This document shows, in pieces, positions 777 to 5,412 of a stretch of 15,622 nt of DNA. Position 1 is the first letter of the stretch. The number at the start of each line of letters is the position of its first letter. A model generated the notes under the pieces. It had not been told where the DNA came from. It did no database searches and saw nothing but the letters and a program-made list of their open reading frames with translations. Origin of the DNA: Acidobacteriota bacterium (GTDB lineage: Bacteria; Acidobacteriota; Terriglobia; Terriglobales; Acidobacteriaceae). Location: NCBI GenBank assembly GCA_021841795.1, contig JAKCDN010000019.1, positions 1 through 15,622 on the forward strand, written 5' to 3'. The position numbers were made by a program, and so were the translations under genes.

Positions 777-874
777 GGGACGGGGAGATTTGAACTGCCG
801 AATGGCTCGGCTTGGCCTCGCTCCCCCTCGCAGGCCAGACTGATGCGCTTGCGCTGCGCTCCAGCGCAGGTTGG
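777..874 (-). repeat. Structured dispersed repeat, copy A (degenerate tRNA-Pro 3' end)
   Basis: This copy matches copy B (5170-5267) at 63 of 65 aligned positions over 777-841, and the two match again at the far end (GGTTGG). Positions 777-801 match 24 of 25 bases of the 3' end of tRNA-Pro at 5341-5365. Read on the minus strand, it offers a hairpin TGCGCT...AGCGCA (plus 844-849 with 863-868), a second TGGCCT...AGGCCA, and a third GCCGA...TCGGC next to the tRNA-like T-arm. The T-arm itself is damaged here, while the other hairpins are intact. The CCA end is lost. Confidence 0.7.
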
Positions 875-1027
875 AAGACGGGAAGCCTTCGGGGAATACC
901 CGCGGCGTTCTGCGCCTTGAAAGAATGCCAGCGCACAGGACTAGAATGGCCAGCAAAGCAACAAGAGTCCAATTTGGCGGCTTGAAAGTGCGGTCAGGGC
1001 CGCAAGTCCATCGAAAGGGCTATGGGG

Positions 1028-1402
1028 ATGGGATACTTTCGCCTTTTTCGTCGCGTGCATGTTGCGCCCGGTATGACGATCAATCTTGCAAAGTCCGGGC
1101 CATCGCTCAGCCTTGGCGCGCGTGGAGCGCATGTGACACTCAGCAGTACCGGCGTCCGCAAGACAATCGGACTGCCCGGCTCCGGCTGCTTTTACACCTC
1201 AAAGCAGGGCTGGCATAGCGGCGTGCACACGGCCCCGCAGTTCACCAGCGCAACCGCCGCGCCGCCGGTTCAGCGCTCCGGCTGGCAGACGGTGGGACAC
1301 GCTCTGCTGGTGCTCCTGGAGGCCGTTGGAATCGCGGTGGTGACTGTGATGGGTGTTCTGCTCGTGCTACTCAGCGTGGCGGGAGGCTCAAAGCGGCGAT
1401 AG
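1028..1402 (+). CDS. DUF4236 domain protein with C-terminal membrane segment
   Basis: The protein has 124 residues if it begins at the ATG at 1028. That start has GAAAGGG 8 bases upstream and reproduces the usual family opening (MGYFRLFRR followed by APGMTINLAKSG). An in-frame ATG at 1022 would add two residues and sits too close to the Shine-Dalgarno sequence. Residues 1-58 form the DUF4236 module, with NLAKSGPSLSLGARGA and TGVRKTIGLPGSG matching the glycine/serine-rich family core. A linker of about 30 residues follows. Residues about 90-117 are one strongly hydrophobic helix, and the basic tail SKRR suggests a cytoplasmic C-terminus. The function of DUF4236 is unknown. The gene stands alone upstream of the low-GC cassette, and its base composition is closer to the host than to the cassette. 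Confidence 0.8.
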   Translation: MGYFRLFRRVHVAPGMTINLAKSGPSLSLGARGAHVTLSSTGVRKTIGLPGSGCFYTSKQGWHSGVHTAPQFTSATAAPPVQRSGWQTVGHALLVLLEAVGIAVVTVMGVLLVLLSVAGGSKRR

Positions 1403-1435
1403 ATGCGATGGGTTTTGTCTGGTTTGATCGTCGCA

Positions 1436-1618
1436 CTATGGGTCTTTTTCAGGTGGGAACGCCAGTTGTTCGCAACGCTCCACGCGCGCCGGGCCGTCCA
1501 ATAGCAGCGCCTTTCGTGCTGCCTTGGCAATCGCGGCCTGTTCCACCGCGTGGGCTTCGATCAAGTCTTGTCCATGCTCGATAAGGCATTGCCCTTGCGA
1601 AGAAAGCAGGCGTGATAG
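1436..1618 (-). pseudogene. Possible ORF relic between DUF4236 and the DGQHR gene
   Basis: Between stops at 1619-1621 and 1436-1438 the minus strand is open for about 60 codons. It reads like real protein (QCLIEHGQDLIEAHAVEQ, then RKALLLDGPARVERCEQLAF). There is no ATG, and no GTG or TTG with a ribosome binding site, so as it stands it looks like a decapitated gene or a chance frame. The family is not recognised. The rest of the 1403-1774 gap contains only the promoter of the next gene. Confidence 0.2.
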
Positions 1619-1660
1619 TCACTGCACGTCGTCATTGGCCGAGCCGCTGGCAACTTTGCA

Positions 1661-1688
1661 TTGAGTTCTGAGCTAATGCGCCTATAAT
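1661..1688 (+). promoter_or_regulatory. Sigma70-like promoter of the DGQHR/Dam cassette
   Basis: A perfect TATAAT lies at 1683-1688. TTGAGT at 1661-1666 (four of six consensus bases) lies 16 bases upstream. The expected start point near 1695 leaves a leader of about 80 bases. In that leader, ATG at 1755 opens a seven-codon frame (MTHHGVP) whose TGA at 1776-1778 overlaps the ATG of the main gene. Translational coupling is possible, but the mini-frame has no good ribosome binding site. Confidence 0.6.
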
Positions 1689-1774
1689 TAACGAGATTCA
1701 AGCGAATCCTTCGCGTTCACTCTCTACTGGGCCATGCGCTTGATGCGGGCGCTGATGACCCATCATGGAGTTCC

Positions 1775-4135
1775 ATGAAACGGGATACGGACACTATCGG
1801 ACTATTCGGGCCTCTCCTCATAGAGCCATCCAAAATCAAGCGGGAAGCCGTTCGACGGCGCAAACTGTTTGATGAGCAGCCAGTAAGTGGGGCGGAAATC
1901 GCTGCTTACGAAGCCGACGGCTGGCAGGTTGATCGAAAGCTGAAACGGTCGATTCGGATGAAGCGACCAAAGGCAATCGATGAACGCCTTGAGAATCGAT
2001 TTTGGCTGTTTCTTGCGCGTTTGGGATACCCGGAAATCAACGCTGGCAGAAAGTTCACCATCGTGATTGATCGCAAGGGCGCGGAGCAGTTGCGTAAACA
2101 GGTTGACGTATTTGCCAAAGATGATGAAACCGTAGTGGTGGCCGAGTGTAAGGCTTCAGGTTCATATGTGAAGCGGAGCCTACAAAAAGACCTTGAGGAG
2201 TTCGCAAATCTCAAGAAACCGATCGCCCAAGCAGTTCATAAGCATTATGGAGAAGACAAAAAGCTCAAAATCATTTGGCTGTTCGTTACCGAAAACATCA
2301 TCTGGTCTTCGCCAGACAAGGAAAGAGCGAAGGGCGAAAACATTCGAATCATCACGGAAAGAGAACTGCGGTACTACAGCCAGATTGCCGACCACATTGG
2401 CAAGGCGGCACGCTATCAATTCTTAGCCGAATTCCTAAAAGATCAGTCCATTCCCGAGCTAAGCGGGAAGGCCATTCCAGCCGTCAGAGGCAAACTTGGT
2501 GGGAGGCGGTTCTACTCTTTCGTTACGACTCCTCGGCACTTACTCAAAATCTCGTTCGTCAATCATCGATCTTTGAATGACCCCGAAGGTGCGCCTACCT
2601 ATCAACGGTTGGTTAGTCGAACACGAATGCGGGAACTTGGCGAATTCATTAAAGCAGGTGGATTCTTTCCAAACAATTTGCTTATCAACTTTGTTCGGCC
2701 CGTCCGATTCGACAAGTCGGCTAGCGATGATTCAGCGGACATTCAGTTCGGACAACTATTCTTGCCAGATAAGTACCGGTCCGCATGGATTATCGACGGT
2801 CAGCACCGGCTTTACGGGTTTGCTCCGATTGATGACAAGTTTGCCGATCAAAACATAATCGTGGTCGCATTTGAGCAACTATCTAAGGTGGAGGAAGCTA
2901 ATCTTTTCGTCACGATAAACCACGAACAGAAATCGGTTCCCAAGAACTTGCTAGACGACCTCGCTGGGGATCTCGAATGGGGATCTGAAATCCCAAGTAG
3001 AAAAATCGGAGCAATCAGTGCGCGCCTTATCAATCTGCTGAACAGCGACGTGGGGGAACCATTCTTCAATCGCATAGCCCAACAAGGTATGGCTGCGACG
3101 GGCAAAACGAATCTGACATTACCGGCCCTCAAAGATGCCCTTCGTAGGTCCGGCTTGCTCGGACGTGCAATGCTCAACAACAAGGTTTACGATCATGGCT
3201 CTCTTTGTGGCGCTACGGATTCGGAAACTTTGGATCGGGCCAGAACCGCTCTGAATGAGTTTTTTGCGCTCGTAAGGAATGCGAACATGGCGGAGTGGGA
3301 CAGCGGGCGAGATGGATTCATTTGTACGAACGTCGCTGTGCAAGCCTACATTATGCTCTTTGGGGCCGTCATCAAGTACTGGGAGGCGGATACGGCCTCC
3401 AATGCGCGCGAGATGGATGCGGAAGAAATCATAATGGGGATTGAGGAGTATTTCGGTCCGGTCCGTGAATTCTTGGAGTCCAGCAGTCAGGCAAAGATTA
3501 AAGAGGAGTTCCAAGTTCAATTCGGAGCTGGTGGCCCGCCTGAGTATTTCTTCAGACTTTGCAAGCTAGTGAAGGCCAAATATGCAGACTTTCAGCCCGA
3601 GGGGCTAGCTGAGTGGGAAGCCGAGCAGTCAGAGGAACGAATTGATGAAGCAGATGCTCAGTTGAAAGCCCTCGTTTCTGAGATGAGGGATTACATATTC
3701 AGTGTTTTTCGCACACTCTACGGCGAAAAGAGCAATGCCTATTGGGAAAAGGGCGTAACCGATAGTGCAGTGAAAACCGCTGCATACACACGCTCACAGG
3801 ATTACCCACTCGAAGAGCGTCTACCACTCGAAACTTATCTTGAAGTCGTCGAGATGAAGAAAATCGTCGAGGCTAAGAAAGTCTGGCCTTTGTTCAAGTC
3901 TGTATTCGACATTCCAGAATTCGGAGTGAAAGGCCAAGCAAAAAACCTCAAGTGGATGCTGCTTATTAACGAATTGCGGCGCATCCCAGGCCACCCCGCG
4001 AAAGAGCGAAAGTATAAGCTGGACGACTTCGAATACATTGACTACATTCACGGCGAATTCATGACGCGACTAGAACGCGCGAAGAAGGAGCCAACCCCAG
4101 ACCCCGTTTTGGCTGTTGGAGAGGATGATGATTGA
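1775..4135 (+). CDS. DGQHR-domain protein with PD-(D/E)XK-like and HEPN-like ends
   Basis: This 786-residue protein starts at ATG 1775, with GGAG 4 bases upstream. Its centre is a DGQHR domain: SAWIIDGQHRLYGF at residues 337-349, then the family signature FVTINHEQKSV (378-388) and the late motif FGAGGPPEYFFRLCKLVKAK (583-602). DndB, the regulator of DNA phosphorothioation, and DpdB-like proteins share this ParB-like family, but no dnd or dpd genes are present here. Residues about 65-215 look like a restriction-endonuclease fold: QVDVFA (D111), then VVVAECKA (E124, K126), as in PD-(D/E)XK enzymes. Residues about 625-770 resemble a Swt1-type HEPN domain; LINELRRIPGHP gives R735-X4-H740. Low GC and the overlapping Dam methylase gene suggest a modification or defence cassette. 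The DGQHR call is firm, the two terminal domains are inferred from motifs, and no activity can be assigned. Confidence 0.88.
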   Translation: MKRDTDTIGLFGPLLIEPSKIKREAVRRRKLFDEQPVSGAEIAAYEADGWQVDRKLKRSIRMKRPKAIDERLENRFWLFLARLGYPEINAGRKFTIVIDRKGAEQLRKQVDVFAKDDETVVVAECKASGSYVKRSLQKDLEEFANLKKPIAQAVHKHYGEDKKLKIIWLFVTENIIWSSPDKERAKGENIRIITERELRYYSQIADHIGKAARYQFLAEFLKDQSIPELSGKAIPAVRGKLGGRRFYSFVTTPRHLLKISFVNHRSLNDPEGAPTYQRLVSRTRMRELGEFIKAGGFFPNNLLINFVRPVRFDKSASDDSADIQFGQLFLPDKYRSAWIIDGQHRLYGFAPIDDKFADQNIIVVAFEQLSKVEEANLFVTINHEQKSVPKNLLDDLAGDLEWGSEIPSRKIGAISARLINLLNSDVGEPFFNRIAQQGMAATGKTNLTLPALKDALRRSGLLGRAMLNNKVYDHGSLCGATDSETLDRARTALNEFFALVRNANMAEWDSGRDGFICTNVAVQAYIMLFGAVIKYWEADTASNAREMDAEEIIMGIEEYFGPVREFLESSSQAKIKEEFQVQFGAGGPPEYFFRLCKLVKAKYADFQPEGLAEWEAEQSEERIDEADAQLKALVSEMRDYIFSVFRTLYGEKSNAYWEKGVTDSAVKTAAYTRSQDYPLEERLPLETYLEVVEMKKIVEAKKVWPLFKSVFDIPEFGVKGQAKNLKWMLLINELRRIPGHPAKERKYKLDDFEYIDYIHGEFMTRLERAKKEPTPDPVLAVGEDDD

Positions 4136-4925
4136 ACCTTTCTTGAAATGGCCCGGCGGAAAGCGTTGGCTAGTTAGCCGTTACAGTGAACTATTTCCTC
4201 AAAAATACAAGCGATATTTTGAGCCTTTTCTGGGTGGCGGAGCGGTGTTCTTTTCACTACTACCCAAACAAGGGTGTTTGTCAGACTCCAACGCTGAACT
4301 CATAAATGCGTACCACTGTCTAAAGACGCGCTATACGGAAATTGAACGTGGCTTGGCTCGCTATCATGAACGCCATTGCTCAGATTTTTATTACAAAGTG
4401 AGAGAGGAGCAATCCCATGATCCGCTCAAGAGAGCAATTCGCTTCCTTTATTTGAACCGAACATGCTTCAACGGGATTTATCGAGTGAATTTGAACGGCG
4501 TTTTCAATGTTCCAATTGGAACAAAAACTGCTGTGCGTTTTGAAGAAGGCTATCTGAAAACGGTTGCGGCGGCATTGAAGCGGACGACAATTAGAGTGCG
4601 TGACTTTGAAGACTCCATCAACGACGCCAAAAGGGGTGATTTTGTGTATGTGGACCCTCCCTATACGGTCATGCACAACAACAACGGATTCGTTAAATAT
4701 AATGCGAAGCTCTTTTCTTGGCCCGACCAATCGCGCTTAGCGAGGGCGCTTAAATCTGCGGATGCGCGCGGTGTTCTCATCATGCTTTCAAACGCGGATC
4801 ACCCAAGTGTGCGGGCGCTCTATGATGGATTCGGAACGCCCAAAATGCTCTCAAGGCATAGCGTCTTATCTGCCGATTCGAGCTTCCGCCGAAGTGCAAC
4901 CGAACTACTGATTACCAACTATTGA
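4128..4925 (+). CDS. dam: Dam-family DNA adenine N6-methyltransferase
   Basis: The 265-residue protein carries the alpha-class (D12) motif order: motif X FLKWPGGKRWL (residues 5-15), the SAM-binding motif FEPFLGGGAVFF (31-42), LSDSNAELINAY (52-63) and the catalytic DPPY (176-179) in FVYVDPPYTV. Length and order match Dam, DpnM and MboI-type methylases, which methylate adenine in short sites. GATC is the common target, but specificity cannot be read here. I chose ATG 4128, which has GGAG 6 bases upstream and gives the typical MIEPFLKW opening. ATG 4125 and TTG 4116 are in-frame alternatives. The gene overlaps the end of the DGQHR gene by 8 bases, so the two are surely co-transcribed and probably translationally coupled. 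Its GC is as low as its partner's. It may protect host DNA against a nuclease activity of the neighbour, as in restriction-modification. Confidence 0.92.
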   Translation: MIEPFLKWPGGKRWLVSRYSELFPQKYKRYFEPFLGGGAVFFSLLPKQGCLSDSNAELINAYHCLKTRYTEIERGLARYHERHCSDFYYKVREEQSHDPLKRAIRFLYLNRTCFNGIYRVNLNGVFNVPIGTKTAVRFEEGYLKTVAAALKRTTIRVRDFEDSINDAKRGDFVYVDPPYTVMHNNNGFVKYNAKLFSWPDQSRLARALKSADARGVLIMLSNADHPSVRALYDGFGTPKMLSRHSVLSADSSFRRSATELLITNY

Positions 4926-5164
4926 TTGGCGTGGTCGTGCTACCGGAACTTAAGTAAGCCCATTCACCTAAATCTTCACCGTCGCAAGGTCTGACCAAGC
5001 CCAAGATAACGTACGATATTTTTCGCAAAACCTCTCTCACGACCTCTGGACTGCGGACTGCGGTTTGTGAAAGAGAAGAAGGCGAAAATTCTTGCAAGAA
5101 ATAGACCCCTCGCTCAGGATATTTCCCAAGGAGTCAACATTCTGTAACTTATTGATTTTAAAGA

Positions 5165-5267
5165 TGGTCGGGACGGGCAGATTTGAACTGCCGAATGGCT
5201 CGGCTTGGCCTCGCTCCCCTCGCAGGCCAGACTCGGGCGTCTTCGCTGCGCTGCGACGCCGGGTTGG
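5165..5267 (-). repeat. Structured dispersed repeat, copy B (tRNA-Pro 3' end with CCA)
   Basis: Positions 5165-5194 are identical for 30 bases to the 3' end of tRNA-Pro at 5336-5365: CCA, discriminator, acceptor 3' strand and whole T-arm. There is no tRNA 5' half. Beyond the tRNA part the sequence continues as in copy A. On the minus strand it can form GGCGTC...GACGCC (plus 5236-5241 with 5255-5260, 13-base loop), then TGGCCT...AGGCCA, then GCCGA...TCGGC, the last competing with the T-arm. Two more perfect small hairpins lie just outside (5278-5294 and 5297-5308), towards the real tRNA. Between the Dam gene and this repeat (4926-5164) I see no gene. Confidence 0.75.
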
Positions 5268-5335
5268 GGCGCTCGCGGTCGGCAGTCCGCCGACAGGTGT
5301 GCCGACACGGACAGAGTGCATGAAGGGAAATTAAT

Positions 5336-5412
5336 TGGTCGGGACGGGCAGATTTGAACTGCCGACCCCTCGCACCCCAAGCGAGTGCTCTACCAGGCTG
5401 AGCCACGTCCCG
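5336..5412 (-). tRNA. tRNA-Pro (GGG anticodon)
   Basis: A complete 77-base cloverleaf with encoded CCA. The acceptor CGGGACG/CGTCCCG is at plus 5406-5412 and 5340-5346. The D-arm is GCTC...GAGC, the anticodon arm is CTCGC-TTGGGGT-GCGAG with anticodon GGG, the variable loop is GGGTC, and the T-arm is GGCAG-TTCAAAT-CTGCC. The discriminator is A. All stems pair without mismatch. Its 3' end is duplicated in copies B and A of the neighbouring repeat, the usual picture at a tRNA integration site. Confidence 0.97.

Follow-up and report, generated by a model that had tools for sequence, protein, structure and literature searches.

A two-gene cassette joining a nuclease, DGQHR and HEPN-like protein to a Dam-type methylase in an Acidobacteriota genome: a putative methylation-gated defence system

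Introduction

How is a protein that seems to combine a DNA-cutting domain, a ParB-like fold and a possible RNase in one polypeptide kept in check, and what does an adenine methylase encoded beside it contribute? This question is raised by two overlapping genes in a 15,622-nucleotide stretch of DNA from an Acidobacteriota bacterium (GenBank assembly GCA_021841795.1, contig JAKCDN010000019.1), referred to as the window throughout. The first gene encodes a 786-residue DGQHR protein, the putative effector, and the second a Dam-type methylase. The original prediction, made from the letters of this DNA, described the pair as a compact modification/defence unit in which a nuclease-bearing ParB-like protein is accompanied by its own adenine methylase, and our computational analysis supports that reading. 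From sequence comparisons, we put the probability at roughly 0.6 that the cassette is a self-contained, two-gene, methylation-gated restriction-modification-like defence system with a suicide RNase.

Pairing of the effector with the methylase

We compared 24 distinct loci of the three-part effector family, 21 of which, the window included, were decidable with respect to a neighbouring methylase. A D12 methylase lies directly beside the effector gene at 18 of the 21 (the window, L002, L003, L004, L048, L049, L050, L052, L056-L062, L101, L142 and L143), which is the adjacent DNA methyltransferase of a type II arrangement. No methylase is found next door in L005, L006 and L144, and L047, L145 and L146 end at a contig edge, with no methylase on the side that is covered. 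Recurrence of the adjacent pair in unrelated genomes had been named as a check of the original prediction, and the 18 loci bear it out: they occur in the proteobacteria Luteimonas, Stenotrophomonas and Aquisalinus, in Acidobacteriota genomes and on IMG/VR viral contigs.

The distance between the two open reading frames (ORFs), computed for 17 pairs, ranges from a 50-nucleotide (nt) overlap to a gap of 49 nt. The effector may come first, the methylase may come first or the genes may converge (L049), and order and strand differ even between sister branches (L048 versus L058, L049 versus L143). The effector of L052 is split across two frames, and the methylase of L101 contains an internal stop. 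Leaving out L050, L052 and L101, we found that the distance matrices of effector and methylase correlate with r = 0.70 over 15 of the 18 pairs, a value that none of 10,000 permutations reached, in a test made generous by related loci. Moreover, 22 exact source-contig sizes were common to the 120 best effector matches and the 120 best methylase matches, whereas shifted sizes gave 0.69 on average and at most 4. Chance adjacency was rejected in view of the 18 of 21 loci and the matrix correlation.

Since the methylase is kept through changes of order and strand and varies together with the effector, its presence there is not incidental. This result bears on a different explanation, in which the effector is a modification-dependent (type IV-like) enzyme that cuts foreign-modified DNA like GmrSD or BrxU, and the Dam gene has an independent epigenetic or anti-restriction function. 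Related ParB-fold NTPases (DUF262) are reported to act with modified DNA in GmrSD, BrxU, SspE and DndI (PMC10952713, PMC11662687, PMC4619093). In view of the retained and co-varying methylase, we regard this explanation as very unlikely.

Relatives of the effector are numerous. Among 7,992 scored candidates, 2,633 match at E <= 0.001, relatives of other architectures included, and among those listed by name the only labels are 'DGQHR domain-containing protein' and 'DNA sulfur modification protein DndB'. Systematic genome sampling covered the phylum of the window; with its own genome counted each time, matches were found in 40 of 396 Acidobacteriota genomes (E <= 0.001, mostly short DGQHR-only matches), in 12 of 200 genomes of its order, Terriglobales, and in 8 of 399 genomes of its class, Terriglobia, at E <= 1e-30. 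The IMG/VR viral contigs yielded seven relatives in one scan and an eighth (L101) in a second, and plasmid and phage searches with distant members gave no further full-length locus. The assembled genome has a completeness of about 71%; its sole match to the long protein is the window gene, and the sole D12 methylase found in it is the window methylase.

The set of 24 loci leaves out repeat entries for a place already counted (L007-L010, L036, L044, L134-L139), entries that are pieces of the window (among them L001, L091-L094, L135), other records of L005 and L006 (L053, L149), further entries on the contigs of L056-L062 (L095-L100, L102), L051, which probably represents the complementary half of the gene in L050, other architectures (L054, L055, L147, L148) and all DGQHR-only matches. 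The tree was built from 19 full-length loci and 9 database proteins.

The methylase and its putative target

The predicted Dam-type methylase with an 8-base overlap was borne out: its D12 family score and DPPY catalytic motif place it in the Dam/D12 class, and its candidate starts are ATG 4128, which gives that overlap, ATG 4125 and TTG 4116. Its nearest solved relative is DpnM (2dpm), followed by Dam structures. E. coli Dam and DpnM are GATC enzymes. The hairpin listed in Table 1, whose residues we take to have a role in target recognition, has a mean majority fraction of 0.84 across 36 chosen methylases, whereas the full-length protein has 0.62, and 3 of 240 same-width segments score as high. 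The 36 include 15 database proteins picked for a source contig size that an effector also has, and 4 that belong to other DGQHR systems. Because the hairpin is among the most conserved stretches, we suggest that the methylase family has one common target, probably a GATC or GAT-core site.

Domain architecture of the long protein

The long protein has three parts, as had been predicted, and its third part, which was not named at that time, appears to be HEPN-like. The 786-residue ORF matches TIGR03187 DGQHR at E 5e-43 (147.8 bits, above the NCBIfam cut-off of 58.85) and Pfam DndB at 2.9e-11, also above the cut-off, and it combines the predicted ParB-CTPase fold with the arginine of the DGQHR motif. 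Its matches to the equivalog models are partial (76.8 of 300 bits for DpdB and 22.5 of 328 for DndB).

A modification-plus-regulator pair might be proposed from these matches, in which the DGQHR protein is a nucleoside triphosphate (NTP)-dependent regulator or partner of the modifying enzyme, like DndB or DpdB, and has no restriction role. DndB is said to be an ATP-dependent negative regulator (PMC10853773). Nevertheless, the DndB and DpdB profiles span only 352-370 positions, and the proposal leaves both the N-terminal PD-(D/E)XK domain, with its conserved catalytic residues, and the HEPN-like domain unexplained, which makes it highly improbable in our view.

In the C-terminal part, R735 and H740 form the Rx4-6H motif of the HEPN superfamily, which is retained by nearly all aligned relatives (Table 1). 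HepT and Csm6 are proteins that carry HEPN domains. A PDB sequence search with alignment A1 returned a single weak, irrelevant match. Because the window's own C-terminus had no HEPN match in Pfam and Foldseek with the isolated C-terminus gave nothing useful, the assignment rests on the relatives and on VIA-align, and support for a HEPN-like third part is moderate.

The conserved Rx4H suggests another possibility, namely a methylation-guard abortive system: methylated host sites, or the methylase, would hold the effector inactive, and the HEPN RNase (with the DNase) would kill the cell when a phage disturbs the methylation or the methylase. Fusions of HEPN domains to restriction DNases are read as suicidal back-ups in PMC3710099, and the near-constant methylase hairpin is more in keeping with a guarded mark than with a restriction site that diversifies. 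However, the PD-(D/E)XK motif is conserved as well as the HEPN motif, and L062 and L101 have lost Rx4H but retain the nuclease motif. Because the nuclease motif is equally conserved and outlasts Rx4H in these loci, the evidence points to DNA cutting as the core activity, and we consider a guard system unlikely.

Table 1. Features of the cassette and its surroundings (positions in the window)
Feature	Position	Strand	Remarks
DGQHR protein, 786 amino acids (aa)	1775..4135	+	putative restriction/effector subunit; PD-(D/E)XK nuclease, DGQHR/ParB fold, helical middle and HEPN-like part; ORF intact
PD-(D/E)XK nuclease domain, residues 8-221	1796..2437	+	predicted
Nuclease motif D111...E124-C-K126	2105..2152	+	
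DGQHR/ParB-CTPase fold, residues 237-387	2483..2935	+	predicted, DndB-type
D341-G-Q-H-R345 motif	2795..2809	+	presumed NTP pocket; invariant in 52/52 aligned rows
HEPN-like domain, residues 615-772	3617..4090	+	predicted
R735-x4-H740, HEPN RNase-type motif	3977..3994	+	in 51/52 aligned rows, absent from L062
Dam/D12-class adenine-N6 DNA methyltransferase	4128..4925	+	8-base overlap with DGQHR gene; TIGR00571 1e-73, PF02086 5e-51
Presumed target-recognition hairpin LNRTCFNGIYRVNLNGVFNVPIGTK of methylase	4452..4526	+	corresponding segments of DpnM and Dam align with it
Catalytic DPPYT motif of methylase	4653..4667	+	
Promoter-like site TTGAGT-16 nt-TATAAT	1661..1688	+	TATAAT at 1683-1688; weak
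Direct repeat, left copy	777..870	.	starts with the 3' end of tRNA-Pro
Direct repeat, right copy	5170..5262	.	same repeat of about 93 bp
tRNA-Pro(GGG), intact	5336..5412	-	23-30 bp in common with the repeats

Putative mechanism

Taking the cassette as a methylation-gated restriction-modification-like system, we provide a putative mechanism for its action. The domain make-up, catalytic-residue conservation, gene pairing and co-variation described above are computed results, and the activities that follow are proposed. The Dam-type enzyme would mark the host DNA by methylating adenine within a short sequence, probably GATC or another with a GAT core. The N-terminal PD-(D/E)XK domain of the effector would cut DNA without the mark, and we infer that this activity serves phage defence. 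The DGQHR/ParB-fold domain may bind NTP and, as a switch or clamp, make cutting depend on the methylation state. The C-terminal HEPN-like domain may attack RNA as a suicide or back-up arm, in keeping with the interpretation of HEPN-DNase fusions cited above, or may mediate dimerisation.

By analogy, the nearest mechanistic model for the effector is DndI, whose ParB-fold ATPase with DGQQR is thought to free the nuclease from marked host DNA; host modification stimulates this ATPase, and the DGQQR arginine is reported to be required for ATPase activity and full phage defence (PMC11662687). ParB folds are described as binding a variety of NTPs, both ATP and GTP in the case of one DndB-like protein (PMC12704722). 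We also counted in favour of a restriction-modification-like system the DGQHR proteins of 565-616 aa, with matches reaching the nuclease part, that stand beside beta-class (N6_N4-type) DNA methylases (L147:4050-7151; L148:3715-6620; L055:1519-4625, Akkermansia phage Chantilly, genes convergent). If active, the cassette would unite marking of self DNA, restriction of DNA and a suicide RNase in a very compact form, and immunity gated by adenine methylation would be added to the roles of the ParB/CTPase fold. Given the size of the family, a defence gene pair open to testing would then be present in many genomes.

Comparison with known systems

The original prediction did not recognise the pair as a described system, and the scans with PADLOC and NCBIfam agree: no named system matches in full, and the PADLOC, NCBIfam and Pfam labels are partial. 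The usual Dnd, Dpd, BREX and DISARM partners, already thought to be absent, were not recognised when Pfam was run on the pair and five more window proteins, seven in all, and PADLOC on the pair alone; the contig ends 1.8 kb upstream of the pair. No description of the Dam-paired three-part protein was found in the open-licence PMC literature.

The cassette resembles type II restriction-modification of the DpnII/DpnM type in that a nuclease adjoins a D12 adenine methylase, DpnM is the nearest solved methylase and PADLOC applies the label MTase_II. It differs in that the nuclease subunit is fused to ParB-fold DGQHR and HEPN-like domains, and no PADLOC type II restriction endonuclease (REase) model matches the long protein among the matches listed. 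In DndI, SspE, GmrSD and BrxU, too, a ParB-like fold carrying D-G-Q-[HQ]-R is joined to a nuclease. Their features are a C-terminal HNH, DUF262 and a phosphorothioate mark, whereas the cassette has an N-terminal PD-(D/E)XK domain, a DGQHR domain of the DndB/TIGR03187 type and a predicted N6-methyladenine mark. Membership in the GmrSD/DndI group was rejected, as 20 members gave no DUF1524 (HNH) match at E up to 1 and the C-terminus is HEPN-like. DndB and DpdB have the DGQHR domain in common with the cassette protein but not its extra nuclease and HEPN-like domains, and Dnd or Dpd membership was rejected because the scores are far under the equivalog cut-offs.

Two further candidates show partial likeness. 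The profiles of the PADLOC candidate PDC-M34B (147-192 positions) match the HEPN-like region in 6 of 20 members (L049 residues 602-735, E 6e-12); however, they cover the HEPN part only, and the window copy is unmatched at E 0.01. PD-lambda-5 also contains a methyltransferase domain and is described as a compacted prophage version of restriction-modification plus abortive infection (Vassallo et al. 2022, PMC9519451). Identity with this system was rejected, since the methylase matches PD-Lambda-5_B at 4e-14 and MTase_II at 1e-94, and the long protein has no match to a PD-Lambda-5 model at E 0.01.

The HEPN survey of 2013 (Anantharaman et al.) lists Saro_3948, a fusion of ParB with a Swt1-like HEPN domain, and MAE_28990 HEPN, a HEPN family in an operon with a ParB nuclease and a DNA methylase (PMC3710099). 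The cassette is comparable to both, the former joining ParB and HEPN in one protein and the latter bringing ParB, HEPN and a methylase into one operon; it differs from the Saro_3948 fusion, for which neither a PD-(D/E)XK domain nor a Dam partner is mentioned in the part of the survey that lists it (PMC3710099). A connection between restriction-modification loci and ParB, REase and HEPN toxin domains had already been drawn in 2012 (PMC3506569). ParB-HEPN fusions, catalogued in 2013, are known already, and the Dam-paired three-part form is a variant of that kind.

The methylase-less clade and the nuclease lysine

The three loci without a neighbouring methylase, L005, L006 and L144, form one clade (support 100/100 in the tree). 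They adjoin radical-SAM and GHKL-type ATPase genes, and L005 and L006 also carry a second, short DGQHR gene. These modules (L005:7371-11594, L006:7248-11388, L144:8232-11429) encode a radical-SAM protein of about 540 aa and a GHKL/HATPase_c_3 protein of about 510-525 aa. The Radical_SAM matches are under the Pfam cut-off (24.5 bits in L005 and 20.3 in L144, of 29.5), those to HATPase_c_3 are above it, and neither protein of L144 has a PADLOC match at E 0.001. The L005 locus is identical in three plasmid records. The L006 protein may be Saro_3948, whose prefix we take to be a Novosphingobium aromaticivorans tag.

All 18 methylase-linked loci have the nuclease motif D-E-C-K, whereas the methylase-less loci have ECT (L005 and L144) or ECR (L006). 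Such a contrast would fit an intact nuclease that needs the methylase. Two points weigh against relying on it as support for restriction-modification. The contrast represents one evolutionary event, and the full-length relative P0070, which is probably methylase-linked and has the same source contig size as methylase P0196, reads ECR for ECK. Therefore, we give the contrast little weight. The clade lends itself to a natural comparison on the question of which partner exerts control over the effector.

A bolder proposal, which we put forward tentatively and consider rather unlikely, is that the family represents a distinct class of restriction-modification. A DNase, a ParB-type switch or clamp and an RNase would act in one polypeptide, methylation would be read through an NTP cycle, perhaps with ParB-like sliding, and not by direct site recognition, and in one clade the effector, with a changed nuclease lysine, would have a different partner module (radical SAM and GHKL ATPase, sometimes with a second DGQHR protein).

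Genomic context and mobility

Both genes are low in GC, as had been noted (0.498 for the DGQHR gene and 0.471 for the methylase gene, compared with 0.638-0.72 in six other window genes computed). The cassette lies between the two copies of the direct repeat, and the intact tRNA-Pro(GGG) follows the right copy. The two copies are 98% identical over the first 50 nt and 79% over the next 47 nt, and, apart from the tRNA-Pro, these two long copies are the only ones found in the assembled genome. The low GC and the flanking tRNA-Pro repeats indicate that the cassette was imported, and the two-gene cassette is probably mobile.

Formed around the tRNA-Pro 3' end sequence, the direct repeats resemble attachment sites around the cassette. 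No integrase was seen among the window proteins scanned with Pfam. No empty site was found when the neighbouring S-adenosylmethionine-methyltransferase was compared with 26 genomes, the own genome included; 15 of the 26 matched, the best other at 28% identity. The repeat-bounded segment also contains a gene for a DUF4236 protein (2e-14, window 1022-1402), yet its GC is host-like (0.638).

The promoter with a perfect TATAAT that was originally described stands as far as its letters are concerned. However, the region 1400-5340 contains 3 promoter-like sites, compared with 3.3 +/- 1.8 in shuffles, and we discounted the promoter evidence because this count shows no excess.

Other DGQHR arrangements

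Further arrangements of DGQHR genes were observed. Three viral contigs contain three-gene operons in which a different DGQHR protein of about 500 aa is accompanied by a protein of 424-447 aa and a Dam methylase (L081:5692-9384, L086:4837-8464, L090:4689-8396); the middle protein was scanned with Pfam in L081 and L086 and matched no family. On two other viral contigs, a second, shorter DGQHR-like gene is located downstream on the opposite strand (L060:9158-10309, L061:10558-11688). Finally, a Dam methylase, a small protein that seems hydrophobic by eye and a 380-aa DGQHR protein stand in a row in L082:1689-4160, beside an ORF that looks integrase-like by eye.

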